A stretch of 64,000 nt of DNA from Sycon ciliatum. Lineage: Eukaryota > Porifera > Calcarea > Leucosolenida > Sycettidae. The first letter of the stretch is position 1. Each line of letters opens with the position of its first letter. The notes beneath the pieces were generated by a model, which was given only the letters and a program-made list of their open reading frames with translations, ran no database searches and was not told the origin of the DNA. The translations under genes were made by a program, and so were the position numbers. Below are positions 34,601-64,000 of this stretch, piece by piece. The stretch spans positions 13,214,138 through 13,278,137 of the forward strand of contig NC_088649.1 in the NCBI RefSeq assembly GCF_964019385.1, read 5' to 3'.

Positions 34601-37600
34601 TATAACATGAGCCAGCTGTAATGTCAGTAGTCGCATATGTTTGATTTTTGGTTTGTTTGTAGGGCGCAAGCACCCACATTCAGTGACCCAGAAAATTTGG
34701 CACTGCTGTTAATAGTTTAGTCGCAAAGTGAAGATTCACGGGTAAAAAGCCCCAAACTTGGAGATAGGTTATTATTCAGCTTTCAGCAGCCGTGGGCGAG
34801 CTCTTTAGAGAAATGTGGGTCTTTTTCTGGGTGCCCTTGTCTATGTCCAGCTACACAACGAGATGAGGATGGTCATTGTCATTTTCTGAGCTGCGAACGG
34901 GCAGAAAGGTGAGAAAATGTCGGATTTTGACCATTTGTGCTCACCTTTCAATTTCCACGTACCTCTCTATAACATGACCCAGCTGTAATGTCAGTAGTCG
35001 CATTTGTTTGATTTTTGGTTTGCTTGTAGGGCGCAGGCACTCACATTCAGTGACCCAGAAAATTTGGCACTGCTGTGAATAGTTTAGTCGCAAAGTGAAG
35101 ATTCACGGGTAAAAAGCCCCAAACTTGGAGATAGGGTATTATTCAGCTTTCAGCAGCCGTGGGCGAGTTCTTTAGAGAAATGTGGGTCTTTTTCTGGGTG
35201 CCCTTGTCTATGTCCAGCTACACAACGAGATGAGGATGGTCATTGTCATTTTCTGAGCTGCGAACGGGCAGAAAGGTGAGAAAATGTCGGATTTTGACCA
35301 TTTGTGCTCACCTTTCAATTTCAACGTACCTCTCTATAACATGGGCCAGCTGTTATGTCAGTAGTCGCATATGTTTGATTTTTGGTTTGCTTGTAGGGCG
35401 CAGGCACCCACATTAAGTAAGCCAGAAAATTTGGCACTGCTGTGAATAGTTTAGTCGCAAAGTGAAGATTCACGGGTAAAAAGCCCCAAACTTGGAGATA
35501 GGTTATTATTCAGCTTTCAGCAGCCGTGGGCGAGTTCTTTAGAGAAATGTGGGTCTTTTTCTGGGTGCCCTTGTCTATGTCCAGCTACACAACGAGATGA
35601 GGATGGTCATTGTCATTTTCTGAGCTGCGAACGGGCAGAAAGGTGAGAAAATGTCGGATTTTGACCATTTGTGGTCACCTTTCAATTTCAACGTACCTCT
35701 CTATAACATGAGCCAGCTGTAATGTCATTAGTCGCATATGTTTGATTTTTGGTTTGCTTGTAGGGCGCAGGCACCCACATTCAGTGACCCAGAAAATTTG
35801 GCACTGCTGTGAATAGTTTAGTCGCAAAGTGAAGATTCACGGGTAAAAAGCCCCAAACTTGGAGATAGGTTATTATTCAGCTTTCAGCAGCCGTGGGCGA
35901 GCTCTTTAGAGAAATGTGGGTCTTTTTCTGGGTGCCCTTGTCTATGTCCAGCTACACAACGAGATGAGGATGGTCATTGTCATTTTCTGAGCTGCGAACG
36001 GGCAGAAAGGTGAGAAAATGTCGGATTTTGACCATTAATTTTTTGCTCACCTTTCAATTTCAACGTACCTCTCTATAACATGAGCCAGCTGTAATGTCAG
36101 TAGTCGCATATGTTTGATTTTTGGTTTGCTTGTAGGGCGCAGGCACCCACATTCAGTGAGCCAGAAAATTTGGCACTGCTGCGAATAGTTTAGTCGCAAA
36201 GTGAAGATTCACGGGTAAAAAGCCCCAAACTTGGAGATAGGTTATTATTCAGCTTTCAGCAGCCGTGGGCGAGTTCTTTAGAGAAATGTGGGTCTTTTTC
36301 TGGGTGCCCTTGTCTATGTCCAGCTACACAACGAGATGAGGATGGTCATTGTCATTTTCTGAGCTGCGAACGGGCAGAAAGGTGAGAAAATGTCGGATTT
36401 TGACCATTTGTGCTCACCTTTCAATTTCAACGTACCTCTCTATAACATGGGCCAGCTGTAATGTCAGTAGTCGCATATGTTTGATTTTTGGTTTGCTTGT
36501 AGGGCGCAGGCACCCACATTAAGTAAGCCAGAAAATTTGGCACTGCTGTGAATAGTTTAGTCGCAAAGTGAAGATTCACGGGTAAAAAGCCCCAAACTTG
36601 GAGATAGGTTATTATTCAGCTTTCAGCAGCCGTGGGCGAGTTCTTTAGAGAAATGTGGGTCTTTTTCTGGGTGCCCTTGTCTATGTCCAGCTACACAACG
36701 AGATGAGGATGGGCATTGTCATTTTCTGAGCTGCGAACGGGCAGAAAGGTGAGAAAATGTCGGATTTTGACCATTTGTGCTCACCTTTCAATTTCAACGT
36801 ACCTCTCTATAACATGAGCCAGCTGTAATGTCAGTAGTCGCATATGTTTGATTTTTGGTTTGTTTGTAGGGCGCAAGCACCCACATTCAGTGACCCAGAA
36901 AATTTGGCACTGCTGTTAATAGTTTAGTCGCAAAGTGAAGATTCACGGGTAAAAAGCCCCAAACTTGGAGATAGGTTATTATTCAGCTTTCAGCAGCCGT
37001 GGGCGAGCTCTTTAGAGAAATGTGGGTCTTTTTCTGGGTGCCCTTGTCTATGTCCAGCTACACAACGAGATGAGGATGGTCATTGTCATTTTCTGAGCTG
37101 CGAACGGGCAGAAAGGTGAGAAAATGTCGGATTTTGACCATTTGTGCTCACCTTTCAATTTCCACGTACCTCTCTATAACATGACCCAGCTGTAATGTCA
37201 GTAGTCGCATATGTTTGATTTTTGGTTTGCTTGTAGGGCGCAGGCACCCACTTTTAAGTTACCCAGAAAATTTGGCACTGCTGTGAATAGTTTAGTCGCA
37301 AAGTGAAGATTCACGGGTAAAAAGCCCCAAACTTGGAGATAGGGTATTATTCAGCTTTCAGCAGCCGTGGGCGAGTTCTTTAGAGAAATGTGGGTCTTTT
37401 TCTGGGTGCCCTTGTCTATGTCCAGCTACACAACGAGATGAGGATGGTCATTGTCATTTTCTGAGCTGCGAACGGGCAGAAAGGTGAGAAAATGTCGGAT
37501 TTTGACCATTTGTGCTCACCTTTCAATTTCAACGTACCTCTCTATAACATGGGCCAGCTGTAATGTCAGTAGTCGCATATGTTTGATTTTTGGTTTGCTT

Positions 37601-39360
37601 GTAGGGCGCAGGCACCCACATTAAGTAAGCCAGAAAATTTGGCACTGCTGTGAATAGTTTAGTCGCAAAGTGAAGATTCACGGGTAAAAAGCCCCAAACT
37701 TGGAGATAGGTTATTATTCAGCTTTCAGCAGCCGTGGGCGAGTTCTTTAGAGAAATGTGGGTCTTTTTCTGGGTGCCCTTGTCTATGTCCAGCTACACAA
37801 CGAGATGAGGATGGTCATTGTCATTTTCTGAGCTGCGAACGGGCAGAAAGGTGAGAAAATGTCGGATTTTGACCATTTGTGCTCACCTTTCAATTTCAAC
37901 GTACCTCTCTATAACATGAGCCAGCTGTAATGTCATTAGTCGCATATGTTTGATTTTTGGTTTGCTTGTAGGGCGCAGGCACCCACATTCAGTGACCCAG
38001 AAAATTTGGCACTGCTGTGAATAGTTTAGTCGCAAAGTGAAGATTCACGGGTAAAAAGCCCCAAACTTGGAGATAGGGTATTATTCAGCTTTCAGCAGCC
38101 GTGGGCGAGTTCTTTAGAGAAATGTGGGTCTTTTTCTGGGTGCCCTTGTCTATGTCCAGCTACACAACGAGATGAGGATGGGCATTGTCATTTTCTGAGC
38201 TGCGAACGGGCAGAAAGGTGAGAAAATGTCGGATTTTGACCATTTGTGCTCACCTTTCAATTTCAACGTACCTCTCTATAACATGAGCCAGCTGTAATGT
38301 CAGTAGTCGCATATGTTTGATTTTTGGTTTGCTTGTAGGGCGCAGGCACCCACATTCAGTGAGCCAGAAAATTTGGCACTGCTGCGAATAGTTTAGTCGC
38401 AAAGTGAAGATTCACGGGTAAAAAGCCCCAAACTTGGAGATAGGTTATTATTCAGCTTTCAGCAGCCGTGGGCGAGTTCTTTAGAGAAATGTGGGTCTTT
38501 TTCTGGGTGCCCTTGTCTATGTCCAGCTACACAACGAGATGAGGATGGTCATTGTCATTTTCTGAGCTGCGAACGGGCAGAAAGGTGAGAAAATGTCGGA
38601 TTTTGACCATTTGTGCTCACCTTTCAATTTCAACGTACCTCTCTATAACATGGGCCAGCTGTAATGTCAGTAGTCGCATATGTTTGATTTTTGGTTTGCT
38701 TGTAGGGCGCAGGCACCCACATTAAGTAAGCCAGAAAATTTGGCACTGCTGTGAATAGTTTAGTCGCAAAGTGAAGATTCACGGGTAAAAAGCCCCAAAC
38801 TTGGAGATAGGTTATTATTCAGCTTTCAGCAGCCGTGGGCGAGTTCTTTAGAGAAATGTGGGTCTTTTTCTGGGTGCCCTTGTCTATGTCCAGCTACACA
38901 ACGAGATGAGGATGGTCATTGTCATTTTCTGAGCTGCGAACGGGCAGAAAGGTGAGAAAATGTCGGATTTTGACCATTTGTGGTCACCTTTCAATTTCAA
39001 CGTACCTCTCTATAACATGAGCCAGCTGTAATGTCATTAGTCGCATATGTTTGATTTTTGGTTTGCTTGTAGGGCGCAGGCACCCACATTCAGTGACCCA
39101 GAAAATTTGGCACTGCTGTGAATAGTTTAGTCGCAAAGTGAAGATTCACGGGTAAAAAGCCCCAAACTTGGAGATAGGTTATTATTCAGCTTTCAGCAGC
39201 CGTGGGCGAGCTCTTTAGAGAAATGTGGGTCTTTTTCTGGGTGCCCTTGTCTATGTCCAGCTACACAACGAGATGAGGATGGTCATTGTCATTTTCTGAG
39301 CTGCGAACGGGCAGAAAGGTGAGAAAATGTCGGATTTTGACCATTAATTTTTTGCTCACC
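28670..39360 (+). repeat. Monomer variant with 5-bp AATTT insertion (five copies)
   Basis: Five monomers carry ACCATTAATTTTGTGCTC or ACCATTAATTTTTTGCTC where the consensus has ACCATTTGTGCTC, a 5-bp gain inside the dyad loop. They lie near 28675, 33086, 34193, 36033 and 39342. The first three also share ATGAGACAGCTG, while the last two have ATGAGCCAGCTG and TTTTTTGCTC, so two sub-lineages exist. The insertion is confined to this part of array 1. Confidence 0.85.
31190..32620 (+). repeat. Two-monomer (734-bp) tandem duplication
   Basis: About 31190-31923 and 31924-32620 match at a 734-bp offset. Both have the order ATGAGCCAG monomer, GGGCATTG monomer with ATGACCCAG, then GATAGGGTATTATTC (about 31826 and 32560). 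The match ends at TCTTTTCCTGG near 32609. Confidence 0.7.
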
Positions 39361-39730
39361 TTTCAATTTCAACGTACCTCTCTATAACATGAGCCAGCTG
39401 TAATGTCAGTAGTCGCATATGTTTGATTTTTGGTTTGCTTGTAGGGCGCAGGCACCCACATTCAGTGAGCCAGAAAATTTGGCACTGCTGCGAATAGTTT
39501 AGTCGCAAAGTGAAGATTCACGGGTAAAAAGCCCCAAACTTGGAGATAGGTTATTATTCAGCTTTCAGCAGCCGTGGGCGAGTTCTTTAGAGAAATGTGG
39601 GTCTTTTTCTGGGTGCCCTTGTCTATGTCCAGCTACACAACGAGATGAGGATGGTCATTGTCATTTTCTGAGCTGCGAACGGGCAGAAAGGTGAGAAAAT
39701 GTCGGATTTTGACCATTTGTGCTCACCTTT
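35240..39730 (+). repeat. Nine-monomer-spaced (3309-bp) duplication
   Basis: About 35240-36420 reappears at 38550-39730. The offset of 3309 bp is nine 367-bp monomers plus 6 bp of insertions. Shared markers are CATGGGCCAGCTG, CATTAAGTAAGCC (about 35411 and 38720), GTCATTAGTCGC (about 35725 and 39034), the ACCATTAATT insertion (36031 and 39340) and CTGCTGCGAATAG. The CATTAAGTAAGCC monomer also recurs at about 36517, 37619 and 30630. Confidence 0.75.
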
Positions 39731-41594: not shown

Positions 41595-44500
41595 CCCAGC
41601 TGTAATGTCAGTAGTCGCATATGTTTGATTTTTGGTTTGCTTGTAGGGCGCAGGCACCCACATTCAGTGACCCAGAAAATTTGGCACTGCTGTGAATAGT
41701 TTAGTCGCAAAGTGAAGATTCACGGGTAAAAAGCCCCAAACTTGGAGATAGGGTATTATTCAGCTTTCAGCAGCCGTGGGCGAGCTCTTTAGAGAAATGT
41801 GGGTCTTTTTCTGGGTGCCCTTGTCTATGTCCAGCTACACAACGAGATGAGGATGGTCATTGTCATTTTCTGAGCTGCGAACGGGCAGAAAGGTGAGAAA
41901 ATGTCGGATTTTGACCATTTGTGCTCACCTTTCAATTTCAACGTACCTCTCTATAACATGGGCCAGCTGTAATGTCAGTAGTCGCATATGTTTGATTTTT
42001 GGTTTGCTTGTAGGGCGCAGGCACCCACATTTAGTAAGCCAGAAAATTTGGCACTGCTGTGAATAGTTTAGTCGCAAAGTGAAGATTCACGGGTAAAAAG
42101 CCCCAAACTTGGAGATAAGTTATTATTCAGCTTTCAGCAGCCGTGGGCGAGTTCTTTAGAGAAATGTGGGTCTTTTTCTGGGTGCCCTTGTCTATGTCCA
42201 GCTACACAACGAGATGAGGATGGGAATTGTCATTTTCTGAGCTGCGAACGGGCAGAAAGGTGAGAAAATGTCGGATTTTGACCATTTGTGGTCACCTTTC
42301 AATTTCAACGTACCTCTCTATAACATGAGCCAGCTGTAATGTCAGTAGTCGCATATGTTTGATTTTTGGTTTGCTTGTAGGGCGCAGGCACCCACATTCA
42401 GTGAGCCAGAAAATTTGGCACTGCTGTGAATAGTTTAGTCGCAAAGTGAAGATTCACGGGTAAAAAGCCCCAAACTTGGAGATAGGTTATTATTCAGCTT
42501 TCAGCAGCCGTGGGCGAGTTCTTTAGAGAAATGTGGGTCTTTTTCTGGGTGCCCTTGTCTATGTCCAGCTACACAACGAGATGAGGATGGTCATTGTCAT
42601 TTTCTGAGCTGCGAACGGGCAGAAAGGTGAGAAAATGTCGGATTTTGACCATTTGTGGTCACCTTTCAATTTCAACGTACCTCTCTATAACATGAGCCAG
42701 CTGTGATCTCAATAGTCGCATATGTTTGATTTTTGGTTTGCTTGTAGGGCGCAGGCACCCACATTCAGTGACCCAGAAAATTTGGCACTGCTGTGAATAG
42801 TTTAGTCGCAAAGTGAAGATTCACGCGTAAAAAGCCCAAAACTTGGAGATAGGGTATTATTCAGCTTTCAGCAGCCGTGGGCGAGTTCTTTAGAGAAATG
42901 TGGGTCTTTTTCTGGGTGCCCTTGTCTATGTCCAGCTACACAACGAGATGAGGATGGGCATTGTCATTTTCTGAGCTGCGAACGGGCAGAAAGGTGAGAA
43001 AATGTCGGATTTTGACCATTTGTGCTCACCTTTCAATTTCAACGTACCTCTCTATAACATGAGCCAGCTGTAATGTCAGTAGTCGCATATGTTTGATTTT
43101 TGGTTTGCTTGTAGGGCGCAGGCACCCACATTCAGTGACCCAGAAAATTTGGCACTGCTGTGAATAGTTTAGTCGCAAAGTGAAGATTCACGGGTAAAAA
43201 GCCCCAAACTTGGAGATAGGTTATTATTCAGCTTTCAGCAGCCGTGGGCGAGCTCTTTAGAGAAATGTGGGTCTTTTTCTGGGTGCCCTTGTCTATGTCC
43301 AGCTACACAACGAGATGAGGATGGTCATTGTCATTTTCTGAGCTGCGAACGGGCAGAAAGGTGAGAAAATGTCGGATTTTGACCATTTGTGCTCACCTTT
43401 CAATTTCAACGGACCTCTCTATAACATGACCCAGCTGTAATGTCAGTAGTCGCATTTGTTTGATTTTTGGTTTGCTTGTAGGGCGCAGGCACCCACATTC
43501 AGTGAGCCAGAAAATTTGGCACTGCTGTGAATAGTTTAGTCGCAAAGTGAAGATTCACGCGTAAAAAGCCCCAAACTTGGAGATAGGGTATTATTCAGCT
43601 TTCAGCAGCCGTGGGCGAGTTCTTTAGAGAAATGTGGGTCTTTTTCTGGGTGCCCTTGTCTATGTCCAGCTACACAACGAGATGAGGATGGGCATTGTCA
43701 TTTTCTGAGCTGCAAACGGGCAGAAAGGTGAGAAAATGTCGGATTTTGACCATTTGTGCTCACCTTTCAATTTCAACGTACCTCTCTATAACATGACCCA
43801 GCTGTAATGTCAGTAGTCGCATATGTTTGATTTTTGGTTTGCTTGTAGTGCGCAGGCACCCACATTCAGTGACCCAGAAAATTTGGCACTGCTGTGAATA
43901 GTTTAGTCGCAAAGTGAAGATTCACGGGTAAAAAGCCCCAAACTTGGAGATAGGTTATTATTCAGCTTTCAGCAGCCGTGGGCGAGCTCTTTAGAGAAAT
44001 GTGGGTCTTTTTCTGGGTGCCCTTGTCTATGTCCAGCTACACAACGAGATGAGGATGGTCATTGTCATTTTCTGAGCTGCGAACGGGCAGAAAGGTGAGA
44101 AAATGTCGGATTTTGACCATTTGTGCTCACCTTTCAATTTCAACGTACCTCTCTATAACATGAGCCAGCTGTAATGTCAGTAGTCGCATATGTTTGATTT
44201 TTGGTTTGCTTGTAGGGCGCAGGCACCCACATTCAGTGACCCAGAAAATTTGGCACTGCTGTGAATAGTTTAGTCGCAAAGTGAAGATTCACGGGTAAAA
44301 AGCCCCAAACTTGGAGATAGGTTATTATTCAGCTTTCAGCAGCCGTGGGCGAGTTCTTTAGAGAAATGTGGGTCTTTTTCTGGGTGCCCTTGTCTATGTC
44401 CAGCTACAAAACGAGATGAGGATGGTCATTGTCATTTTCTGAGCTGCGAACGGGCAGAAAGGTGAGAAAATGTCGGATTTTGACCATTTGTGGTCACCTT

Positions 44501-47500
44501 TCAATTTCAACGTACCTCTCTATAACATGAGCCAGCTGTAATGTCAGTAGTCGCATATGTTTGATTTTTGGTTTGCTTGTAGGGCGCAGGCACCCACATT
44601 CAGTGACCCAGAAAATTTGGCACTGCTGTGAATAGTTTAGTCGCAAAGTGAAGATTCATGGGTAAAAAGCCCCAAACTTGGAGATAGCTTATTATTCAGC
44701 TTTCAGCAGCCGTGGGCGAGCTCTTTAGAAAAATGTGCGTCTTTTTGTGGGTGCCCTTGTCTATGTCCAGCTACACAACGAGATGAGGATGGTCATTGTC
44801 ATTTTCTGAGCTGCGAACGGGCAGAAAGGTGAGCAAATGTCGGATTTTGACCATTTGTGGTCACCTTTCAATTTCAACGTACCTCTCTATAACATGACCC
44901 AGCTGTAATGTCAGGAGTCGCATTTGTTTGATTTTTGGTTTGCTTGTAGGGCGCAGGCACCCTCATTCAATGACCGAGAAAATTTGGCACTGCTGTGAAT
45001 AGTTTAGTCGCAAAGTGAAGATTCACGGGTAAACAGCCCCAAACTTGGAGATAGGGTATTATTACGCTTTCAGCAGCCGTGGGCGAGTTCTTTAGAGAAA
45101 TGTGGGTCTTTTTCTGGGTGCCCTTGTCTATGTCCAGCTACACAACGAGATGAGGATGGTCATTGTCATTTTCTGAGCTGCGAACGGGCAGAAAGGTGAG
45201 AAAATGTCGGATTTTGACCATTTGTGGTCACCTTTCAATTTCAACGTACCTCTCTATAACATGAGCCAGCTGTAATGTCAGTAGTCGCATATGTTTGATT
45301 TTTGGTTTGCTTGTAGGGCGCAGGCACCCACATTCAGTGACCCAGAAAATTTGGCACTGCTGTGAATAGTTTAGTCGCAAAGTGAAGATTCACGGGTAAA
45401 AAGCCCCAAACTTGGAGATAGGGTATTATTCAGCTTTCAGCAGCCGTGGGCGAGCTCTTTAGAGAAATGTGGGTCTTTTTCTGGGTGCCCTTGTCTATGT
45501 CCAGCTACACAACGAGATGAGGATGGTCATTGTCATTTTCTGAGCTGCGAACGGGCAGAAAGGTGAGAAAATGTCGGATTTTGACCATTTGTGCTCACCT
45601 TTCAATTTCAACGTACCTCTCTATAACATGGGCCAGCTGTAATGTCAGTAGTCGCATATGTTTGATTTTTGGTTTGCTTGTAGGGCGCAGGCACCCACAT
45701 TTAGTAAGCCAGAAAATTTGGCACTGCTGTGAATAGTTTAGTCGCAAAGGGAAGATTCACGGGTAAAAAGCCCCAAACTTGGAGATAAGTTATTATTCAG
45801 CTTTCAGCAGCCGTGGGCGAGTTCTTTAGAGAAATGTGGGTCTTTTTCTGGGTGCCCTTGTCTATGTCCAGCTACACAACGAGATGAGGATGGGCATTGT
45901 CATTTTCTGAGCTGCGAACGGGCAGAAAGGTGAGAAAATGTCGGATTTTGACCATTTGTGGTCACCTTTCAATTTCAACGTACCTCTCTATAACATGAGC
46001 CAGCTGTAATGTCAGTAGTCGCATATGTTTGATTTTTGGTTTGCTTGTAGGGCGCAGGCACCCACATTCAGTGAGCCAGAAAATTTGGCACTGCTGTGAA
46101 TAGTTTAGTCGCAAAGTGAAGATTCACGGGTAAAAAGCCCCAAACTTGGAGATAGGTTATTATTCAGCTTTCAGCAGCCGTGGGCGAGTTCTTTAGAGAA
46201 ATGTGGGTCTTTTTCTGGGTGCCCTTGTCTATGTCCAGCTACACAACGAGATGAGGATGGTCATTGTCATTTTCTGAGCTGCGAACGGGCAGAAAGGTGA
46301 GAAAATGTCGGATTTTGACCATTTGTGGTCACCTTTCAATTTCAACGTACCTCTCTATAACATGAGCCAGCTGTGATCTCAATAGTCGCATATGTTTGAT
46401 TTTTGGTTTGCTTGTAGGGCGCAGGCACCCACATTCAGTGACCCAGAAAATTTGGCACTGCTGTGAATAGTTTAGTCGCAAAGTGAAGATTCACGCGTAA
46501 AAAGCCCAAAACTTGGAGATAGGGTATTATTCAGCTTTCAGCAGCCGTGGGCGAGTTCTTTAGAGAAATGTGGGTCTTTTTCTGGGTGCCCTTGTCTATG
46601 TCCAGCTACACAACGAGATGAGGATGGGCATTGTCATTTTCTGAGCTGCGAACGGGCAGAAAGGTGAGAAAATGTCGGATTTTGACCATTTGTGCTCACC
46701 TTTCAATTTCAACGTACCTCTCTATAACATGAGCCAGCTGTAATGTCAGTAGTCGCATATGTTTGATTTTTGGTTTGCTTGTAGGGCGCAGGCACCCACA
46801 TTCAGTGACCCAGAAAATTTGGCACTGCTGTGAATAGTTTAGTCGCAAAGTGAAGATTCACGGGTAAAAAGCCCCAAACTTGGAGATAGGTTATTATTCA
46901 GCTTTCAGCAGCCGTGGGCGAGCTCTTTAGAGAAATGTGGGTCTTTTTCTGGGTGCCCTTGTCTATGTCCAGCTACACAACGAGATGAGGATGGTCATTG
47001 TCATTTTCTGAGCTGCGAACGGGCAGAAAGGTGAGAAAATGTCGGATTTTGACCATTTGTGCTCACCTTTCAATTTCAACGGACCTCTCTATAACATGAC
47101 CCAGCTGTAATGTCAGTAGTCGCATTTGTTTGATTTTTGGTTTGCTTGTAGGGCGCAGGCACCCACATTCAGTGAGCCAGAAAATTTGGCACTGCTGTGA
47201 ATAGTTTAGTCGCAAAGTGAAGATTCACGCGTAAAAAGCCCCAAACTTGGAGATAGGGTATTATTCAGCTTTCAGCAGCCGTGGGCGAGTTCTTTAGAGA
47301 AATGTGGGTCTTTTTCTGGGTGCCCTTGTCTATGTCCAGCTACACAACGAGATGAGGATGGGCATTGTCATTTTCTGAGCTGCAAACGGGCAGAAAGGTG
47401 AGAAAATGTCGGATTTTGACCATTTGTGCTCACCTTTCAATTTCAACGTACCTCTCTATAACATGACCCAGCTGTAATGTCAGTAGTCGCATATGTTTGA

Positions 47501-48605
47501 TTTTTGGTTTGCTTGTAGTGCGCAGGCACCCACATTCAGTGACCCAGAAAATTTGGCACTGCTGTGAATAGTTTAGTCGCAAAGTGAAGATTCACGGGTA
47601 AAAAGCCCCAAACTTGGAGATAGGTTATTATTCAGCTTTCAGCAGCCGTGGGCGAGCTCTTTAGAGAAATGTGGGTCTTTTTCTGGGTGCCCTTGTCTAT
47701 GTCCAGCTACACAACGAGATGAGGATGGTCATTGTCATTTTCTGAGCTGCGAACGGGCAGAAAGGTGAGAAAATGTCGGATTTTGACCATTTGTGCTCAC
47801 CTTTCAATTTCAACGTACCTCTCTATAACATGAGCCAGCTGTAATGTCAGTAGTCGCATATGTTTGATTTTTGGTTTGCTTGTAGGGCGCAGGCACCCAC
47901 ATTCAGTGACCCAGAAAATTTGGCACTGCTGTGAATAGTTTAGTCGCAAAGTGAAGATTCACGGGTAAAAAGCCCCAAACTTGGAGATAGGTTATTATTC
48001 AGCTTTCAGCAGCCGTGGGCGAGTTCTTTAGAGAAATGTGGGTCTTTTTCTGGGTGCCCTTGTCTATGTCCAGCTACAAAACGAGATAAGGATGGTCATT
48101 GTCATTTTCTGAGCTGCGAACGGGCAGAAAGGTGAGAAAATGTCGGATTTTGACCATTTGTGGTCACCTTTCAATTTCAACGTACCTCTCTATAACATGA
48201 GCCAGCTGTAATGTCAGTAGTCGCATATGTTTGATTTTTGGTTTGCTTGTAGGGCGCAGGCACCCACATTCAGTGACCCAGAAAATTTGGCACTGCTGTG
48301 AATAGTTTAGTCGCAAAGTGAAGATTCATGGGTAAAAAGCCCCAAACTTGGAGATAGCTTATTATTCAGCTTTCAGCAGCCGTGGGCGAGCTCTTTAGAA
48401 AAATGTGCGTCTTTTTGTGGGTGCCCTTGTCTATGTCCAGCTACACAACGAGATGAGGATGGTCATTGTCATTTTCTGAGCTGCGAACGGGCAGAAAGGT
48501 GAGAAAATGTCGGATTTTGACCATTTGTGGTCACCTTTCAATTTCAACGTACCTCTCTATAACATGACCCAGCTGTAATGTCAGGAGTCGCATTTGTTTG
48601 ATTTT
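41595..48605 (+). repeat. Ten-monomer (3670-bp) tandem duplication
   Basis: About 41595-45264 is followed by a nearly identical 45265-48605. Private markers sit exactly 3670 bp apart: CTGTGATCTCAATAG (42701 and 46371), AACGGACCTC, CTTGTAGTGCGCAGG, CTGCAAACGGG, GATTCACGCG, GATAGCTTATTATTC and TCAGGAGTCGCATTTG. I noticed only a handful of substitutions over 3.3 kb (for example GGGAATTG against GGGCATTG, AAAGTGAAG against AAAGGGAAG, GAGCAAATG against GAGAAAATG). This is the longest and cleanest higher-order duplication in the window and therefore probably among the youngest. Confidence 0.88.
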
Positions 48606-48749
48606 TGGTTTGCTTGTAGGGTGCAGGCACCCACATTCAGTGAGCCAGAAAATTTGGCACTGCTGTGAAGCATTTGTTTGATTTTTGGTTTGCTTGTAGG
48701 GCGCAGGCACCCTCATTCAGTGACCCAGAAAATTTGGCACTGCTGTGAA
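48590..48749 (+). repeat. 80-bp partial duplication inside one monomer (chimeric 447-bp monomer)
   Basis: Monomer starts at 48461 and 48908 are 447 bp apart, 80 bp too many. GCATTTGTTTGATTTTTGGT occurs at 48590 and again at 48670. The two copies differ: the first has GGTGCAGGCACCCACATTC and GTGAGCC, the second has GGCGCAGGCACCCTCATTC and GTGACCC. Both haplotypes occur separately in neighbouring monomers (about 49435 and 49800). The join TGCTGTGAAG-CATTTG is unique in the window. The pattern fits out-of-register recombination between two different monomers instead of simple slippage. Confidence 0.9.
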
Positions 48750-50469
48750 TAGTTTAGTCGCAAAGTGAAGATTCACGGGTAAAAAGCCCCAAACTTGGAG
48801 ATAGGGTATTATTCAGCTTTCAGCAGCCGTGGGCGAGTTCTTTAGAGAAATGTGGGTCTTTTTCTGGGTGCCCTTGTCTATGTCCAGCTACACAACGAGA
48901 TGAGGATGGTCATTGTCATTTTCTGAGCTGCGAACGGGCAGAAAGGTGAGAAAATGTCGGATTTTGACCATGTGTGCTCACCTTTCAATTTCAACGTACC
49001 TCTCTATAACATGGGCCAGCTGTAATGTCAGTAGTCGCATATGTTTGATTTTTGGTTTGCTTGTAGGGCGCAGGCACCCACATTCAGTGAGCCAGAAATT
49101 TTGGCACTGCTGTGAATAGTTTAGTCGCAAAGTGAAGATTCATGGGTAAAAAGCCCCAAACTTGGAGATAGCTTATTATTCAGCTTTCAGCAGCCGTGGG
49201 CGAGCTCTTTAGAAAAATGTGGGTCTTTTTGTGGGTGCCCTTGTCTATGTCCAGCTACACAACGAGATGAGGATGGTCATTGTCATTTTCTGAGCTGCGA
49301 ACGGGCAGAAAGGTGAGAAAATGTCGGATTTTGACCATTTGTGGTCACCTTTCAATTTCAACGTACCTCTCTATAACATGACCCAGCTGTAATGTCAGTA
49401 GTCGCATTTGTTTGATTTTTGGTTTGCTTGTAGGGTGCAGGCACCCACATTCAGTGAGCCAGAAAATTTGGCACTGCTGTGAATAGTTTAGTCGCAAAGT
49501 GAAGATTCACGGGTAAAAAGCCCCAAACTTGGAGATAGGTTATTATTCAGCTTTCAGCAGCCGTGGGCGAGTTCTTTAGAGAAATGTGGGTCTTTTTCTG
49601 GGTGCCCTTGTCTATGTCCAGCTACACAACGAGATGAGGATGGTCATTGTCATTTTCTGAGCTGTGGACGGGCAGAAAGGTGAGAAAATGTCGGATTTTG
49701 ACCATTTGTGCTCACCTTTCAATTTCAACGCACCTCTCTATAACATGACCCAGCTGTAATGTCAGTAGTCGCATTTGTTTGATTTTTGGTTTGCTTGTAG
49801 GGCGCAGGCACCCTCATTCAGTGACCGAGAAAATTTGGCACTGCTGTGAATAGTTTAGTCGCAAAGTGAAGATTCACGGGTAAAAAGCCCCAAACTTGGA
49901 GATAGGGTATTATTCAGCTTTCAGCAGCCGTGGGCGAGTTCTTTAGAGAAATGTGGGTCTTTTTCTGGGTGCCCTTGTCTATGTCCAGCTACACAACGAG
50001 ATGAGGATGGTCATTGTCATTTTCTGAGCTGCGAACGGGCAGAAAGGTGAGAAAATGTCGGATTTTGACCATTTGTGGTCACCTTTCAATTTCAACGTAC
50101 CTCTCTATAACATGAGCCAGCTGTAATGTCAGTAGTCGCATATGTTTGATTTTTGGTTTGCTTGTAGGGCGCAGGCACCCACATTCAGTGACCCAGAAAA
50201 TTTGGCACTGCTGTGAATAGTTTAGTCGCAAAGTGAAGATTCATGGGTAAAAAGCCCCAAACTTGGAGATAGGTTATTATTCAGCTTTCAGCAGCCGTGG
50301 GCGAGCTCTTTAGAAAAATGTGCGTCTTTTTGTGGGTGCCCTTGTCTATGTCCAGCTACACAACGAGATGAGGATGGTCATTGTCATTTTCTGAGCTGCG
50401 AACGGGCATAAAGGTGAGAAAATGTCGGATTTTGACCATTTGTGGTCACCTTTCAATTTCAACGCACCT

Positions 50470-53205: not shown

Positions 53206-54412
53206 TAGGTTATTATTCAGCTTTCAGCAGCCGTGGGCGAGTTCTTTAGAGAAATGTGGGTCTTTTTCTGGGTGCCCTTGTCTATGTCCAGCTACACAAC
53301 GAGATGAGGATGGTCATTGTCATTTTCTGAGCTGCGAACGGGCAGAAAGGTGAGAAAATGTCGGATTTTGACCATTTGTGCTCACCTTTCAATTTCAACG
53401 TACCTCTCTATAACATGAGCCAGCTGTAATGTCAGTAGTCGCATATGTTTGATTTTTGGTTTGCTTGTAGGGCGCAGGCACCCACATTCAGTGACCCAGA
53501 AAATTTGGCACTGCTGTGAATAGTTTAGTCGCAAAGTGAAGATTCACGGGTAAAAAGCCCCAAACTTGGAGATAGGTTATTATTCAGCTTTCAGCAGCCG
53601 TGGGCGAGTTCTTTAGAGAAATGTGGGTCTTTTTCTGGGTGCCCTTGTCTATGTCCAGCTACACAACGAGATGAGGATTGTCATTGTCATTTTCTGAGCT
53701 GCGAACGGGCAGAAAGGTGAGAAAATGTCGGATTTTGACCATTTGTGCTCACCTTTCAATTTCAACGTACCTCTCTATAACATGACCCGGCTGTAATGTC
53801 AGTAGTCGCATTTGTTTGATTTTTGGTTTGCTTGTAGGGCGCAGGCACCCACATTCAGTGACCCAGAAAATTTGGCACTGCTGTGAATAGTTTAGTCGCA
53901 AAGTGAAGATTCACGGGTAAAAAGCCCCAAACTTGGAGATAGGGTATTATTCAGCTTTCAGCAGCCGTGGGCGAGTTCTTTAGAGAAATGTGGGTCTTTT
54001 TCTGGGTGCCCTTGTCTATGTCCAGCTACACAACGAGATGAGGATGGTCATTGTCATTTTCTGAGCTGCGAACGGGCAGAAAGGTGAGAAAATGTCGGAT
54101 TTTGACCATTTGTGCTCACCTTTCAATTTCAACGTACCTCTCTATAACATGAGCCAGCTGTAATGTCAGTAGTCGCATATGTTTGATTTTTGGTTTGCTT
54201 GTAGGGCGCAGGCACCCACATTCAGTGACCCAGAAAATTTGGCACTGCTGTGAATAGTTTAGTCGCAAAGTGAAGATTCACGGGTAAAAAGCCCCAAACT
54301 TGGAGATAGGTTATTATTTAGCTTTCAGCAGCCGTGGGCGAGCTCTTTAGAGAAATGTGGGTCTTTTTCTGGGTGCCCTTGTCTATGTCCAGCTACACAA
54401 CGAGATGAGGAT

Positions 54413-54667
54413 GGTCATTGTCATTTTCTGAGCTGCGAACGGGCAGAAAGGTGAGAAAATGTCGGATTTTGACCATTTGTGCTCACCTTTCAATTTCAAC
54501 GTACCTCTCTATAACATGATCCGGCTGTAATGTCAGTAGTCGCATTTGTTTGATTTTTGGTTTGCTTGTAGGGCGCAGGCACCCACATTCAGTGACCCAG
54601 AAAATTTGGCACTGCTGTGAATAGTTTAGTCGCAAAGTGAAGATTCACGGGTAAAAAGCCCCAAACT
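54413..54667 (+). repeat. Truncated last monomer of array 1
   Basis: The final monomer starts at 54413 and matches consensus for 255 bp, through AAAAAGCCCCAAACT. From 54668 the sequence (GCACCGTCGTTGG) no longer matches the expected TGGAGATAGG. The truncated copy has only minor variants (ATGATCCGGCTG), so there is no gradual decay toward the array edge. Confidence 0.9.
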
Positions 54668-54730
54668 GCACCGTCGTTGGCCAGAAATAGGTATTCTGCT
54701 CCGTTGTGAAGTCTACACACAGACATTGCG

Positions 54731-54948
54731 GTACACACACATACACACACATACACACACAAGTAGGCACAAGCATGTGCCCACACACGCATAAACACGA
54801 CGCATACGTACACACACATACACACACATGTACGAGGCATGCACATATGCATGCATACATGTACAAACACATGTACACACACATACACACACGCACACGC
54901 TCACGCACGCTCACGCGCACGCACACACATACACACAAACACACACGT
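54731..54948. repeat. CA-rich imperfect microsatellite
   Basis: A 218-bp tract of ACACACATACACAC units is interrupted by GCATGTGCC, CATGCACATATGCATGCATA and CACGCACGCTCACGCGCACG segments. Long stretches alternate purine and pyrimidine, which favours Z-DNA under negative supercoiling. It begins about 60 bp after the end of array 1. Confidence 0.9.
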
Positions 54949-55341
54949 ATTAGCACTTCTATACGATTCGCAGTCTGTGCAACACACGAATGCCATCACA
55001 GTCATGAATTTTGTTTACCCCAATACGGTTCAGACAGCAATGCCACGTGTGCATAAAGTGACCCAAGGGCAACCAGAACGGTAATCCGGCAGACAAACCC
55101 AGATTACTTCATGTTCCAGTCCCCCACCACCCTGGTGTACAAGCACCCACCGTCACAGTGTGATACGCAATGCTCTAAACAAAACCCTGCAAACCGGAAT
55201 TCACCAGTGCTGAAGGGTACACACGGCAAAGCGGCTTACTTTAGCCGCAGCACGTTTTCCGCTTTGTGTAATCCGTGGCCGCTTCACAGTGGCCGCCTGT
55301 GATGTTGATTGCTGGGGCTGAGGGGTTACGCTGTACAAACA

Positions 55342-55465
55342 CAGCAGCACACACACACATACACATCGTGACGCATGCACACAAACAACACGAGTGCACG
55401 CACGCGCATACACACTCTCACACAACACACACACATACACACACCACACACAACACACCACACAG
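55342..55465. repeat. Second CA-rich imperfect microsatellite
   Basis: About 124 bp of CA-rich sequence runs from CAGCAGCACACACACAC through GTGCACGCACGCGCATACAC to ACACACCACACACAACACAC. Composition and strand bias match the tract at 54731-54948. Confidence 0.88.
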
Positions 55466-55785
55466 AGGAAGCACGCGAGAATGAGCGGCCAGCTTGTACG
55501 CCACTGTTACATGGGGTTTCTGCAACAGTCATAGTCAAGCAACTAACAACAATACAGACTTATACCAGTGCCTCCACCATTGTTCAGAGACGAGCACATT
55601 GGACACTAGTCCTGCACAATCAAACAAACAATTGCCAGGCTTTTAATACGTGACAGCAAATCAAACCGACTGCTCCGTAATTAGAAATAAAATGGATATA
55701 GCATTCAGCACATCTGACCCAGACATACTGCATGAGTAATACGATGTAATCCTTTCGTCGCCACCAGCCGTCAGCGAAAAGGAAG

Positions 55786-55791
55786 AAAAAA
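55786..55791 (-). terminator. RNA polymerase III T-run terminator of the tRNA-Pro gene
   Basis: Six A residues on the plus strand give TTTTTT on the minus strand, beginning 4 nt past the discriminator base of the tRNA gene. A run of four or more T is the standard Pol III stop, so this length and position support an active tRNA gene. Confidence 0.85.
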
Positions 55792-55794
55792 GTT

Positions 55795-55866
55795 GGGTCT
55801 GTCCGGGATTTGAACCCGGGACCTCTCGCACCCTAAGCGAGAATCATACCCCTAGACCAACAGACC
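55795..55866 (-). tRNA. tRNA-Pro (anticodon AGG), intronless
   Basis: On the minus strand this 72-nt gene folds into a full cloverleaf. The acceptor stem is GGTCTGT against ACAGACC with discriminator C at 55795, as expected for eukaryotic tRNA-Pro. The D arm lies in the A-box region TGGTCTAGGGG. The anticodon stem is CTCGC/GCGAG around loop TTAGGGT, so the anticodon is AGG (plus-strand 55832-55834), which reads CCU and, as inosine, CCC and CCA. The T arm has the B box GGTTCAAATCC flanked by CCCGG pairs. From memory, the body agrees with the animal tRNA-Pro(AGG) consensus, with compensated changes in the acceptor stem. There is no intron and CCA is not encoded. A TTTTTT terminator follows at 55786-55791. 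It is the only conventional gene I can support here. No disabling mismatch is visible, so it is probably functional and not a tRNA-derived SINE head. Confidence 0.96.
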
Positions 55867-56230
55867 AACCACACACCACACTGAAACATTACAGACTTTC
55901 TGGCATCTTTCTGGTACCAAGAGATAAAATCCACCGCGTGACGTCAGAGGTATGACATTATCAGTACCTGTTGAAATTCTCTCTTGTCTTTGAAAAAGCG
56001 GAGTAGTTGGCCACTGAGCACGGTGTAGTAAGCTTTCCAAGAACGAGCAGCAGACTATAGCCAAGGGCAGTTGATGCAAAGAAAGAACAGAAAAAACGAA
56101 GTCAGCATGGTCATTATCTAGATAGCAATGCAGCAGTGGGTTTACCGGGTGTTAGCGGCCGTCGCGAGTTCCCTCTGGGAACGGACACGATAATTTACTC
56201 TCGTTTTAGTGCATCAGCATGCACCGCATG

Positions 56231-56243
56231 CCCCCCCCCCCCC
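56231..56243. repeat. Homopolymer C13
   Basis: Thirteen consecutive C follow CACCGCATG and precede ACAATACACACATAC. Homopolymer length in an assembly is often uncertain. Confidence 0.9.
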
Positions 56244-56321
56244 ACAATACACACATACAAATTACACAAGGGCACTTAAAATCGATAGCACAGCACATGC
56301 ATGAAATGATGAAATGAAACG

Positions 56322-56345
56322 TGTGCACGCGTGCGTGGTGGGAGG

Positions 56346-56388
<43 letters not shown>

Positions 56389-56408
56389 GCATGCGCGCGT
56401 GCGGGTGC
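56322..56408. repeat. GT microsatellite with alternating purine-pyrimidine flanks
   Basis: The core (GT)15G at 56353-56383 is flanked by GTGTGCACGCGTGCGTGG on the left and GTGCATGCGCGCGTGCGGGT on the right. The strand bias is opposite to the CA tracts at 54731-54948 and 55342-55465. The tract has strong Z-DNA potential. Confidence 0.92.
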
Positions 56409-56520
56409 ATAGAGGTACGGTTTACCTTCCGTCAACCCTCATCCAGCTCATTCTTTCTCTGCATGACTCCTTCACATTCCCAGCTTAGTATCATCACCTA
56501 GAACATGACGAATCAACAAC

Positions 56521-56544
56521 AGAAATACAGAAATACAGAAATAC
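56521..56544. repeat. Short tandem repeat, AGAAATAC x 3
   Basis: Three perfect 8-bp units are followed by ATGAACCTCGC. Confidence 0.9.
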
Positions 56545-56724
56545 ATGAACCTCGCACCTCGGTTATCCGGACCCGAAGTCACGGGCACTTCGATCGACCG
56601 GGCACATTTTGGGCGAGAAAGGACAGGTGAGACAATACGCTCGTACGCGTGTACGGGCTCTATTCTTCTGTCGTCGTTTCCCATCCTAGGGCCCCGGCCG
56701 CTGGTGTTCGAAAGCTGCATATCT

Positions 56725-56737
56725 CCCCCCCCCCCCC
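56725..56737. repeat. Homopolymer C13 next to the array 2 edge
   Basis: Thirteen C, followed by TCCACACACACCACA, lead directly into the first satellite base at about 56752. A low-complexity C/CA tract at the boundary is a plausible breakpoint substrate. Confidence 0.9.
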
Positions 56738-59700
56738 TCCACACACACCACAATTGAAAGGTGAGAACAAATGGTCAAAATCCGACATTTTCTAACCTTT
56801 ATGCCCGTTCCCAGCTCAGAAAATGACAATGACCATCCTCATCTCGTTGTGTAGCTGGACATAGACAAGGGCACCCAGAGAAAGACCCACATTTCTCTAA
56901 AGAATTCGCCCACGGCTGCTGAAAGCTGAATAATAACCTATCTCCAAATTTGGGGCTATTTACCCGTGAATCTTCACTTTGCGACTAAACTATTCACAGC
57001 AGGGCCAAATTTTCTCGGTCACTGAATGTGGGTGCCTGCGCCCTACAAGCAAACCAAAAATCAAACCAATGCGACTACTGACATTACAGCTGGGTCATGT
57101 CGTAGAGAGGTACGTTGAAATTGAAAGGTGAGCACAAATGGTCAAAATCCGATATTTTCTAACCTTTATGCCTGTTCGCAGCTCAGAAAATGACAATGAC
57201 CATCCTCATCTCGTTGTGCAGCTGGATATAGACAAGGGCACCCACAAAAAGACCCACATTTCTCGAAAGAACTCGCCCACGGCTGCTGAAAGCTGAATAA
57301 TACCCTATCTCCAAGTTTGGGGCTTTTTACCCGTGAATCTTCACTCTGCGACTAAACTATTCACAGTAGTGCCAAATTTTCTCCGTCACTAAATGTGGGT
57401 GCCTGCGCCCTACAAGCAAACCAAAAATCAAACCAATGCGACTGCTGACATTACAGCTGGGTCATGTTATAGAGGGGTACGTTGAAATTGAAAGGTGAGC
57501 ACAAATGGTCAAAATCCGACATTTTCTCACCTTTCTGCCCGTTCGCAGCTCAGAAAATGACAATGACCATCCTCATCTCGTTGTGTACCTGGACATAGAC
57601 AAGGGCACACAGAAAAAGACCCACATTTCTCTAAAGAATTCGCCCACGGCTGCTGAAAGCTGAATAATAACCTATCTCCAAGTTTGGGGCTTTTTACCCG
57701 TGAATCTTCACTTTGCGACTAAACTATCCACAGCAGTGCCAAATTTTCTGGGTCACTGAATGTGGGTGCCTGCGCCCTACCAGCAAACCAAAAATCAAAC
57801 CAATGCGACTACTGACATTACAGCTGGGTCATTTTATAGAGAGGTACGTTGAAATTGAAAGGTGAGCACAAATGGTCAAAATCCGACATTTTCTAACCTT
57901 TATGGCCGTTCGCAGCTCAGAAAATGACAATGACCTTCCTCATCTCGTTGTGTAGCTGGACATAGACAAGGTCACCCACAAAAAGACCCACATTTCTCGA
58001 AAGAACTCGCCCACGGCTGCTGAAAGCTGAATAATAACCTATCTCCAAGTTTGGGGCTTTTTACCCGTGAATCTTCACTTTGCGACTAAACTATTCACAG
58101 CAGTGCCAAATTTTCTGGGTCACTGAATGTGGGTGCCTGCGCCCTACAAGCAAACCAAAAATCAAACCAATGCGACTACTGACATTACAGCTGGGTCATT
58201 TTATAGAGAGGTTCGTTGAAATTGAAATGGGAGCACAAATGGTCAAAATCCGACATTTTCTAACCTTTATGTTCGTTCGCAGCTCAGAAAATGACAATGA
58301 CCATCCTCATCTCGTTGTGTAGCTGGACATAGACAAGGGCACCTACAAAAAGACAAACATTTCTCGAAAGAACTCGCCCACGGCTGCTGAAAGCTGAATA
58401 ATAACCTATCTCCAAGTTTGGGGCTTTTTTACCAGTGAATCTTCACTTTGCGACTAAACTATTCACAGCAGTGCCAAATTTTCTCGGTCACTGAATGTGG
58501 GTGCCTGCGCCCTACAAGCAAACAAAAAATCAAACCAATGCGACTACTGACATTACAGCTGGATCATGTCGTAGAGAGGTACGTTGAAATTGAAAGGTGA
58601 GCACAAATGGTCAAAATCCGACATTTTCTAACCATTATGCCGGTTCGCAGCTCAGAAAATAACAATGACCATCCTCATCTCGTTGTGTAGCTGGACATAG
58701 ACAAGGGCACCCAGAAAAAGACCCACATTTCTCTAAAGAACTCGCCCACGGCTGCTGAAAGCTGAATAATAACCTATCTCCAAGTTTGGGGCTTTTTACC
58801 CGTGAATCTTCACTTTGCGACTAAACTATTGACAGCAGTGCCAAATTTTCTGGGTCACTGAATGTGGGTGCCTGCGCCCTACCAGCAAGCCAAAAATCAA
58901 ACCAATGCAACTACTGACATAACGGCTGGGTCATTTTATAGAGAGGTACGTTGAAATTGAAAGGTGAGCACAAATGGTCAAAATCCGACATTTTCTAACC
59001 TTTATGCCCGTTCGCAGCTCAGAAAATGACAATGACCATCCTCATCTCGTTGTGTAGCTGGACATAGACAAGGGCACCCAGAAAAAGACCCACATTTCTC
59101 GAAAGAACTCGCCCATGGCTGCTGAAAGCTGAATAATAACCTATCTCCAAGTTTGGGGCTTTTTACCCGTGAATCTTCACTTTGCGACTAAACTATTCAC
59201 AGCAGTGCCAAATTTTCTCGGTCACTGAATGTGGCTGCCTGCGCCCTACAAGCAAACAAAAAATTAAACCAATGCGACTACTGACATTACAGCTGGATCA
59301 TGTCGTAGAGAGGTACGTTGAAACTGAAAGGTGAGCACAAATGGTCAAAATCCGACATTTTCTAACTTTTATGCCCAATCGCAGCTCAGAAAATGACAAT
59401 GACCATCCTCATCTCGTTGTGTAGCTGGACATAGACAAGGGCACTCACAAAAAGACAAACATTTCTCGAAAGAACTCGCCCACGGCTGCTGAAAGCTGAA
59501 TAATAACCTATCTCCAAGTTTGGGGCTTTTTTACCCGTGAATCTTCACTTTGCGACTAAACTATTCACAGCAGTGCCAAATTTTCTCGGTCACTGAATGT
59601 GGGTGCCTGCGCCCTACAAGCAAACAAAAAATTAAACCAATGCGACTACTGACATTACAGCTGGATCATGTCGTAGAGAGGTACGTTGAAATTGAAAGGT

Positions 59701-60599
59701 GAGCACAAATGGTCAAAATCCGACATTTTCTAACCTTTATGCCGGTTCGCAGCTCAGAAAATGACAATGACCATTCTCATCTCGTTATGTAGCTGGACAT
59801 AGACAAGGGCACCCACAAAAAGACAAACATTTCTCGAAAGAACTCGCCCACGGCTGCTGAAAGCTGAATAATAACCTATCTCCAAGTTTGGGGCTTTTTT
59901 ACCAGTGAATCTTCACTTTGCGACTAAACTATTACCAGCAGTGCCAAATTTTCTGGGTCACTGAATGTGGGTGCCTGCGCCCTACAAGCAAACCAAAAAT
60001 CAAACATATGCGACTACTGACATTACAGCTGGGTCATTTTATAAAGAGGTACGTTGAAATTGAAAGGTGAGCACAAATGGTCAAAATCCGACATTTTCTA
60101 ACTTTTATGCCCAATCGCAGCTCAGAAAATGACAATGACCATCCTCATCTCGTTGTGTAGCTGGACATAGACAAGGGCACCCACAAAAAGACCCACATTT
60201 CTCTAAAGAACTCGCCCACGGCTGCTGAAAGCTGAATAATAACCTATCTCCAAGTTTGGGGCTTTTTACCCGTGAATCTTCACTTTGCGACTAAACTATT
60301 CACAGCAGTGCCAAATTTTCTCAGTCACTGAATGTGGGTGCCTGCGCCCTACCAGCAAACCAAAAATCAAACCAATGCGACTACTGACATTACAGCTGGG
60401 TCATTTTATAGAGAGGTACGTTGAAATTGAAAGGTGAGCACAAATGGTCAAAATCCGACATTTTCTAACCTTTATGCCCGTTCGCAGCTCAGAAAATGAC
60501 AATGACCATCCTCATCTCGTTGTGTAGCTGGACATAGACAAGGGCACCCAGAAAAAGACCCACATTTCTCTAAAGAACTCGCCCCCGGCTGCTGAAGGC

Positions 60600-63150
60600 T
60601 GAATAATAACCTATCTCCAAGTTTGGGGCTTTTTACCCGTGAATCTTCACTTTGCGACTAAACTATTCACAGCAGTGCCAAATTTTCTCGGTCACTGAAT
60701 GTGGGTGCCTGCGCCCTAAGAGCAAACTAAAAATCAAACCAATGCGACTACTGACATTACAGCTGGGTCATTTTGTAGAGAGGTACGTTGAAATTGAAAG
60801 GTGAGCACAAATGGTCAAAATCCGACATTTTCTAACCTTTATGCCCGTCTGCAGCTCAGAAAATGACAATGACCATCCTCATCTCGTTGTGTAGCTGGAC
60901 ATAGACAAGGGCACCCACAAAAAGACCCACATTTCTCGAAAGAACTCGCCCATGGCTGCTGAAAGCTGAATAATAACCTATCTCCAAGTTTGGGGCTTTT
61001 TACCCGTGAATCTTCACTTTGCGACTAAACTATTCACAGCAGTGCCAAATTTTCTCGGTCACTGAATGTGGGTGCCTGCGCCCTACAAGCAAACCAAAAA
61101 TCAAACCAATGCGACTACTGACATTACAGCTGGGTCATTTTATAGAGAGGTACGTTGAAATTGAAAGGTGAGCACAAATGGTCAAAATCCGACATTTTCT
61201 GACCTTTATGCCCGTTCGCAGCTCAGAAAATGACAATGACCATCCTCATCTCGTTGTGTAGCTGGACATAGACAAGGGCACCCACAAAAAGACCCACATT
61301 TCTCTAAAGAACTCGCCCACGGCTGCTGAAAGCTGAATAATAACCTATCTCCAAGTTTGGGGCTTTTTACCCGTGAATCTTCGCTTTGCGACTAAACTAT
61401 TCACAGCAGTGCCAAATTTTCTGGGTCACTGAATGTGGGTGCCTGCGTCCGACCAGCACACCAAAAATCAAACCAATGCGACTACTGACATTACAGCTGG
61501 ATCATGTCGTAGAGAGGTACGTTGAAATTGAAAGGTGAGCACAAATGGTCAAAATCCGACATTTTCTAACCTTTATGCCCGTCTGCAGCTCAGAAAATGA
61601 CAATGACCATCCTCATCTCGTTGTGTAGCTGGACATAGACAAGGGCACCCACAAAAAGACCCACATTTCTCGAAAGAACTCGCCCATGGCTGCTGAAAGC
61701 TGAATAATAACCTATCTCCAAGTTTGGGGCTTTTTACCCGTGAATCTTCACTTTGCGACTAAACTATTCACAGCAGTGCCAAATTTTCTCGGTCACTGAA
61801 TGTGGGTGCCTGCGCCCTACAAGCAAACCAAAAATCAAACCAATGCGACTACTGACATTACAGCTGGGTCATTTTATAGAGAGGTACGTTGAAATTGAAA
61901 GGTGAGCACAAATGGTCAAAATCCGACATTTTCTGACCTTTATGCCCGTTCGCAGCTCAGAAAATGACAATGACCATCCTCATCTCGTTGTGTAGCTGGA
62001 CATAGACAAGGGCACCCACAAAAAGACCCACATTTCTCTAAAGAACTCGCCCACGGCTGCTGAAAGCTGAATAATAACCTATCTCCAAGTTTGGGGCTTT
62101 TTACCCGTGAATCTTCGCTTTGCGACTAAACTATTCACAGCAGTGCCAAATTTTCTGGGTCACTGAATGTGGGTGCCTGCGTCCGACCAGCACACCAAAA
62201 ATCAAACCAATGCGACTACTGACATTACAGCTGGATCATGTCGTAGAGAGGTACGTTGAAATTGAAAGGTGAGCACAAATGGTCAAAATCCGACATTTTC
62301 TAACCTTTATGGCCCTTCGCAGCTCAGAAAATGACAATGACCATCCTCATCTCGTTGTGTAGCTGGACATAGACAAGGGCACCCACAAAAAGACCCACAT
62401 TTCTCTAAAGAACTCGCCCACGGCTGCTGAAAGCTGAATAATAACCTTTCTCCAAGTTTCGGGCTTTTTACCCGTGAATCTTCACTTTGCGACTAAACTA
62501 TTCACAGCAGTGCCAAATTTTCTGGGTCACTGAATGTGGGTGCCTGCGCCCTACCAGCAAACCAAAAATCAAACCAATGCGACTACTGACATTACAGCTG
62601 GGTCATTTTATATAGAGGTACGTTGAAATTGAAAGGTGAGCACAAATGGTCAAAATCCGACATTTTCTAACCTTTATGCCCGTTCCCAGCTCAGAAAATG
62701 ACAATGACCATCCTCATCTCGTTGTGTAGCTGGACATAGACAAGGGCACCCACAAAAAGACCCACATTTCTCGAAAGAACTCGCCCCCGGCTGCTGAAAG
62801 CTGAATAATAAACTATCTCCAAGTTTGGGGCTTTTTACCCGTGAATCTTCACTTTGCGACTAAACTATTCACAGCAGTGCCAAATTTTCTCGGTCACTGA
62901 ATGTGGGTGCCTGCGCCCTAAGAGCAAACTAAAAATCAAACCAATGCGACTACTGACATTACAGCTGGGTCATTTTGTAGAGAGGTACGTTGAAATTGAA
63001 AGGTGAGCACAAATGGTCAAAATCCGACATTTTCTAACCTTTATGCCCGTTCGCAGCTCAGAAAATGACAATGACCATCCTCATCTCGTTGTGTAGCTGG
63101 ACATAGACAAGGGCACCCAGAAAAGACCCACATTTCTCGAAAGAACTCGC
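60600..63150 (-). repeat. Six-monomer-spaced (2202-bp) marker repeat within array 2
   Basis: The rare variant GCGCCCTAAGAGCAAACTAA occurs at 60711 and 62913, exactly 2202 bp (6 x 367) apart. Both are followed by CATTTTGTAGAG. The preceding CTCGCCCCCGGCTGC variant also recurs (about 60578 and 62780). A separate marker, ATGGCCCTTCGC, recurs at about 62309 and 63409 (three monomers less 1 bp). This array therefore has its own higher-order pattern. Confidence 0.65.
60835..62300 (-). repeat. Two-monomer (734-bp) tandem duplication within array 2
   Basis: About 60835-61565 and 61569-62300 match at 734 bp. Shared markers are CCCGTCTGCAGC (about 60843 and 61577), GACATTTTCTGACC (61191 and 61925), GAATCTTCGCTTTG, and GCCTGCGTCCGACCAGCACA (61441 and 62175). 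The last marker appears once more at 63642. Confidence 0.8.
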
Positions 63151-64000
63151 CCATGGCTGCTGAAAGCTGAATAATAACCTATCTCCAAGTTTGGGGCTTT
63201 TTACCCGTGAATCTTCACTTTGCGACTAAACTATTCACAGCAGTGCCAAATTTTCTGGGTCACTGAATGTGGGTGCCTGCGCCCTACAAGCAAACCAAAA
63301 ATCAAACCAATGCGACTACTGACATTACAGCTGGGTCATTTTATATAGAGGTACGTTGAAATTGAAAGGTGAGCACAAATGGTCAAAATCCGACATTTTC
63401 TAACCTTTATGGCCCTTCGCAGCTCAGAAAATGACAATGACCAACCTCATCTCGTTGTGTAGCTGGACATAGACAAGGGCACCCACAAAAAGACCCACAT
63501 TTCTCTAAAGAACTCGCCCACGGCTGCTGAAAGCTGAATAATAACCTATCTCCAAGTTTGGGGCTTTTTACCCGTGAATCTTCGCTTTGCGACTAAACTA
63601 TTCACAGCAGTGCCAAATTTTCTGGGTCACTGAATGTGGGTGCCTGCGTCCGACCAGCACACCAAAAATCAAACCAATGCGACTACTGACATTACAGCTG
63701 GATCATGTCGTAGAGAGGTACGTTGAAATTGAAAGCCGGTGAGCACAAATGGTCAAAATCCGACATTTTCTAACCTTTATGCCGGTTCGCAGCTCAGAAA
63801 ATGACAATGACCATTCTCATCTCGTTATGTAGCTGGACATAGACAAGGGCACCCAGAAAAATACCCACATTTCTCTAAAGAATTCGCCCACGGCTGCTGA
63901 AAGATGAATAATAACCTATCTCCAAGTTTGGGGCTTTTTACCCGTGAATCTTCACTTTGCGACTAAACTATTCACAGCAGTGCCAAATTTTCTGGGTCAC

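Follow-up and report, generated by a model that had tools for sequence, protein, structure and literature searches.

The 64-kb window analyzed here, the whole stretch of DNA to which all positions refer, probably represents a polarity switch within a satellite domain, in which two oppositely oriented arrays of a 367-bp family are separated by a 2.08-kb island with a working tRNA-Pro gene. The arrays lie in opposite orientation, end at unlike phases of the monomer, belong to distinct subfamilies, and are separated by an island in which the tRNA gene looks intact. Polarity switches are already known; in this case, the switch is sharp and has a gene-bearing island at its center, and its two arrays, being of one family, allow a base-by-base comparison. 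With such a layout, one can ask if opposite orientation by itself, or also a Pol III gene, blocks sequence exchange between arrays.

Organization of the Satellite Arrays

According to Tandem Repeats Finder (TRF), the window consists almost entirely of one satellite with a period of 367 bp. The forward array (positions 1–54667, plus strand; 148.7 copies with 94% matches) is organized head-to-tail and extends past the left end of the window, and the reverse array of the same satellite (56752–64000, minus strand; period 367, 19.7 copies) extends past the right end. Their visible lengths are very unequal, at least 54.7 kb versus at least 7.2 kb, with both arrays running off the window. Individual monomers were located by a 21-base anchor with up to three mismatches allowed. 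This search identified 149 forward units, all on the plus strand and none beyond 56700, as well as 20 reverse units, all on the minus strand and none before 54667, and it detected no wrong-strand unit in either array. The same satellite family therefore occurs in opposite orientation on the two sides of the spacer, and TRF, the anchors and BLAST agree with the preliminary description in which the satellite runs forward to 54667 and in reverse from 56752.

Comparison of the region 54500–56900 with the consensus by BLAST placed the end of the forward array (54667) at monomer base 255 and the start of the reverse array (56752) at monomer base 83. With these phases, the two edges are not mirror images of one breakpoint, which bears out the earlier view that the arrays do not form a simple one-breakpoint palindrome. 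Both edges are sharp, and satellite identity remains ordinary right up to them: the forward array still matches at 98.2% in its last 168 bases, and the reverse array at 96.6% in its first 149. Outside the array matches, the same comparison returned only stretches of 12–15 bases with E of about 0.5, one being a self-match of the reverse array and one lying in the spacer; except for this single chance-level match of 15 bases, no satellite sequence was found within the spacer.

Spacer and Its tRNA Gene

The non-satellite spacer (54668–56751; 2,084 bp, GC content 0.50, CpG observed/expected ratio 0.86) contains CA/GT microsatellites, two poly-C tracts and one tRNA gene. Its CpG ratio weakly disfavors a typical mammal as the source. 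Two plus-strand copies of a 24-mer combining poly-C with CA-rich sequence (family D6) are located at 56231–56254 and 56725–56748; they are 88% alike, and the second copy ends 3 bp before the reverse array. Pfam gave no hit, with E values up to 1 considered, for nine pieces of translated sequence, representing 8 of the 31 listed open reading frames and part of a ninth. Besides the tRNA, ten Rfam matches with E up to 1 were obtained in 54500–56900, all under the gathering scores; most of them are miRNA-like and fall in CA/GT stretches, and they were set aside as low complexity. A blastn search of the spacer against phages returned a single record, with a 92% match to 38 bases of a phage tRNA-Pro. 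Viral contigs contained no exact match to 34 bases of the satellite or to 52 bases of the tRNA gene, and genome contigs none to 29 bases of the satellite, in collections that may omit records from the window's own genome. Five pieces of the satellite and one of the tRNA gene likewise had no match in the literature, and looking for satellites of 367 bp by length yielded no usable lead. A CTCGGTTATCCGGAC stretch at 56545–56620 was noted by eye and is, we presume, reminiscent of the ends of pogo-type transposons.

The tRNA gene (55795–55866, minus strand, 72 nt) was identified by both ARAGORN and Rfam in the middle of the spacer and is the only tRNA gene that these programs found in the 64-kb window. 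Its type, Pro with anticodon AGG, was assigned by ARAGORN, and Rfam reports a tRNA (RF00005) at the same place, scoring 53.8 bits across the full 71-position model, with E = 8.7e-9 for the entire window. All pairs are formed in the acceptor (7/7), anticodon (5/5) and T (5/5) stems, and three of four in the D stem. The A and B boxes fit loose consensuses, and a run of six T residues begins three bases past the gene end. When the gene is folded alone, its minimum-energy structure is not a cloverleaf, and 12 of 200 shuffled sequences fold at least equally well; for this reason, the assessment of the stems is based on the Rfam alignment and the pair check. No CCA is encoded at the 3' end, which together with the full-length Rfam match argues against a tRNA retro-pseudogene. 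From its sequence, tRNA-Pro looks like a working gene rather than a retrocopy, in line with the intact-looking tRNA-Pro of the preliminary description, and it is probably transcribed by Pol III. Its body is presumably similar to that of animal tRNA-Pro genes.

Two Subfamilies of the Satellite

A result that goes beyond the preliminary description is the division of the satellite into two distinct subfamilies, one in each array. We compared 166 anchor-to-anchor monomers, including 147 of the 148 forward and all 19 reverse ones; a forward unit of 447 bp and the monomers cut at the array edges were left out. Mean pairwise identity over alignment columns was 0.975 within the forward array, 0.958 within the reverse array and 0.952 between the arrays, and identity to the own consensus was 0.986 and 0.975 for the forward and reverse monomers, respectively. 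The forward array shows no loss of homogeneity toward its edge: own-consensus identity is 0.986 in the last 20 monomers and 0.985 in the first 20. The nearest neighbor of a monomer belongs to the same array for all 147 forward and 17 of the 19 reverse monomers, the remaining two reverse monomers being closest to a forward one. Identity within the reverse array exceeds that between arrays by 0.0061, a value reached in only one of 2000 label permutations, whereas blocks of 19 monomers taken from the forward array gave a maximum excess of 0.0034.

The forward and reverse consensus sequences differ at nine alignment columns, three of which (33, 40 and 142) are nearly fixed, with the forward state at a frequency of 0.97–1.00 among forward monomers and 0.05 among reverse ones. 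At two of the nine columns, the reverse state is also common elsewhere in the forward array, and the forward monomer F51844, whose start is 2.8 kb from the edge, carries reverse-array states at five of the nine. No alignment column lacks states common to both arrays. Taken together, the subfamily differences and the states shared at every column suggest that the arrays have a common ancestry and subsequently evolved largely separately.

Several local features of the arrays were observed as well. The 447-bp forward unit (48461–48907) contains an 80-bp tandem duplication (48590–48749, 96% matches). Among the 25 most alike forward pairs of monomers, five identical pairs lie exactly ten units apart within 42589–48460 (42589 to 48094), suggesting that a block of some ten monomers was recently duplicated. 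Five monomers of the forward array, each 372 bp long (at 28615, 33026, 34132, 35972 and 39281), have a common five-base insert, and this variant is restricted to approximately 11 kb (28615–39652). In the reverse array, some monomers within 60854–62342 closely resemble those two units away, with one pair identical and another at 0.989, which hints weakly at a local dimer repeat; mean identity is only 0.962 at a lag of two versus 0.956 at a lag of one. An ancestral dimer within the forward consensus was considered and rejected, since the best self-lag identity (0.311) did not exceed the shuffle mean (0.317). Inverted arms of 10 bp are present within the forward monomer, a weak signal given that 25 of 500 shuffles also reach 10. 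The CENP-B box motif had no exact match on either strand; with one mismatch allowed, there were seven matches on the minus strand and none on the plus strand.

Possible Origin of the Polarity Switch

The observed layout may have been produced by an old inversion, or by satellite growth on either side of the island combined with a flip of one side, after which each array would have been homogenized on its own by unequal exchange. Unequal exchange among repeats of the same orientation keeps an array uniform, whereas exchange between oppositely oriented repeats leads to inversions or unstable products rather than to the exchange of copies. Because crossing-over in opposite orientation provides no copy exchange, the two arrays would be homogenized separately. 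Orientation alone could let them drift apart, so that a role of the tRNA gene is not needed, and tRNA-Pro is probably a bystander of the array structure. The monomer F51844, the two columns often in the reverse state among forward monomers, the two reverse monomers closest to a forward one and the states shared at all columns count against the polarity switch. As for the complementary RNAs that the preliminary description expected from transcription across both arrays, such molecules could form, but a single array transcribed in antisense would yield them too.

Satellite arrays are prone to misassembly, and the switch could accordingly reflect an assembly join, either with spacer ends that come from different places or with two real arrays connected in the wrong relative orientation. 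The low-complexity CA/GT sequence within the spacer and the poly-C/CA tract immediately before the reverse edge are compatible with such a join, and the arrays differ in subfamily, as two unrelated loci would. Nevertheless, no run of N occurs in 53800–57600, and both edges are sharp, with the ordinary identities given above retained to the last bases. A fold-back artifact, moreover, would have made the reverse monomers copies of the forward ones; they are not, which makes a fold-back copy unlikely. The subfamily split argues against a fold-back duplicate, yet it is equally expected if two genuine arrays were wrongly joined. On balance, we regard an assembly join as unlikely.

Comparison with Known Systems

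The repeats around the centromere core of fission yeast are inverted. By analogy with this organism, the preliminary description envisaged a tRNA barrier. In such a reading, tRNA-Pro would recruit TFIIIC and Pol III and keep two chromatin domains apart, with one array perhaps in centromeric chromatin and the other in heterochromatin. This function would be suited by the A and B boxes and the downstream T run of the intact-looking gene, as would the different subfamilies on its two sides; the latter difference, however, is explicable by the opposite orientation alone. In the available part of a study of fission yeast cen1 (tDNA-Ala), where tRNA genes likewise occur in a centromere having inverted repeats, tDNA barriers require TFIIIC and Pol III and function in either orientation (PMC2040200). 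The chromatin transitions described there involve a pair or cluster of tDNAs, and one lone tDNA beside cen1 is bound by TFIIIC and Pol III yet has no barrier activity (PMC2040200), whereas here the tRNA gene is single, not paired or clustered where domains meet, and is located mid-spacer between tandem arrays of the same satellite. Furthermore, the three fission-yeast tDNAs with barrier activity carry a TATA-like motif near −30 (PMC2040200, same part), whereas inspection of the sequence by eye revealed none at about −30 of tRNA-Pro. The barrier proposal, though not refuted, gained no positive support beyond the functional look of the gene, and we consider it highly improbable.

Likewise improbable is the analogy with Tribolium, for which inverted arrays have been proposed to provide the centromere with a large-scale functional symmetry in the form of a hairpin or loop. 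In our window, the two unequal stretches of one satellite do meet in opposite orientation at one place, and the accessible portion of the Tribolium madens study describes similar layouts, with long inverted subarrays of one satellite that meet at conserved inversion sites (PMC13081366). Macro-dyad inverted satellite subarrays are, according to its authors in that portion, documented only in Tribolium (PMC13081366). The inversion sites of T. madens are, as far as this portion of the study goes, highly repeated (2,044 and 3,486 sequences of two types) and built from satellite subunits that have diverged, whereas the window holds one known site with a 2.08-kb non-satellite center, and its visible array parts are very unequal, though both run off the window. 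In addition, the main text of the T. madens paper never mentions tRNA (PMC13081366), whereas here a tRNA gene lies at the switch.

A further, highly improbable reading is a large dyad with the non-satellite island and an active tRNA gene as its fixed center, where the Pol III unit would keep the center open and the subfamilies apart in both sequence and chromatin; if true, this would be a tRNA-centered inverted satellite domain made of tandem satellite rather than of yeast-type repeats.

For the polarity switch that we favor, partial parallels exist in other lineages. Among the literature matches listed, mostly titles and the beginnings of abstracts, none describes a satellite switch centered on a tRNA gene, which is a weak indication. 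The minichromosome cores of African trypanosomes contain 177-bp and 369-bp repeats, and the period of 369 in T. congolense is near the 367 of our satellite; palindromic 369-bp repeats are reported for two of six minichromosomes of T. congolense IL3000 in the available text (PMC6152948). These minichromosomes are mostly 20–60 kb according to the same text, so that the 64 kb seen here exceeds most of them, and the paper has no occurrence of tRNA, whereas our spacer holds a tRNA gene (PMC6152948). Of six T. congolense satellite primers, which were compared with the forward consensus only, five matched no better than shuffles, and the sixth matched at 15 of 20 bases, a value equaled by 2 of 300 shuffles; one of the primers, TCS2, was compared in a form that is one base off the printed one. 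Finally, inversions across primate alpha satellite arrays are on record (PMC11062924, in its available part), and they resemble the present case in that one family switches strand inside a domain. Unlike those inversions, as described in that part of the source, the switch reported here is occupied by 2.08 kb of non-satellite DNA in which a tRNA gene is embedded.
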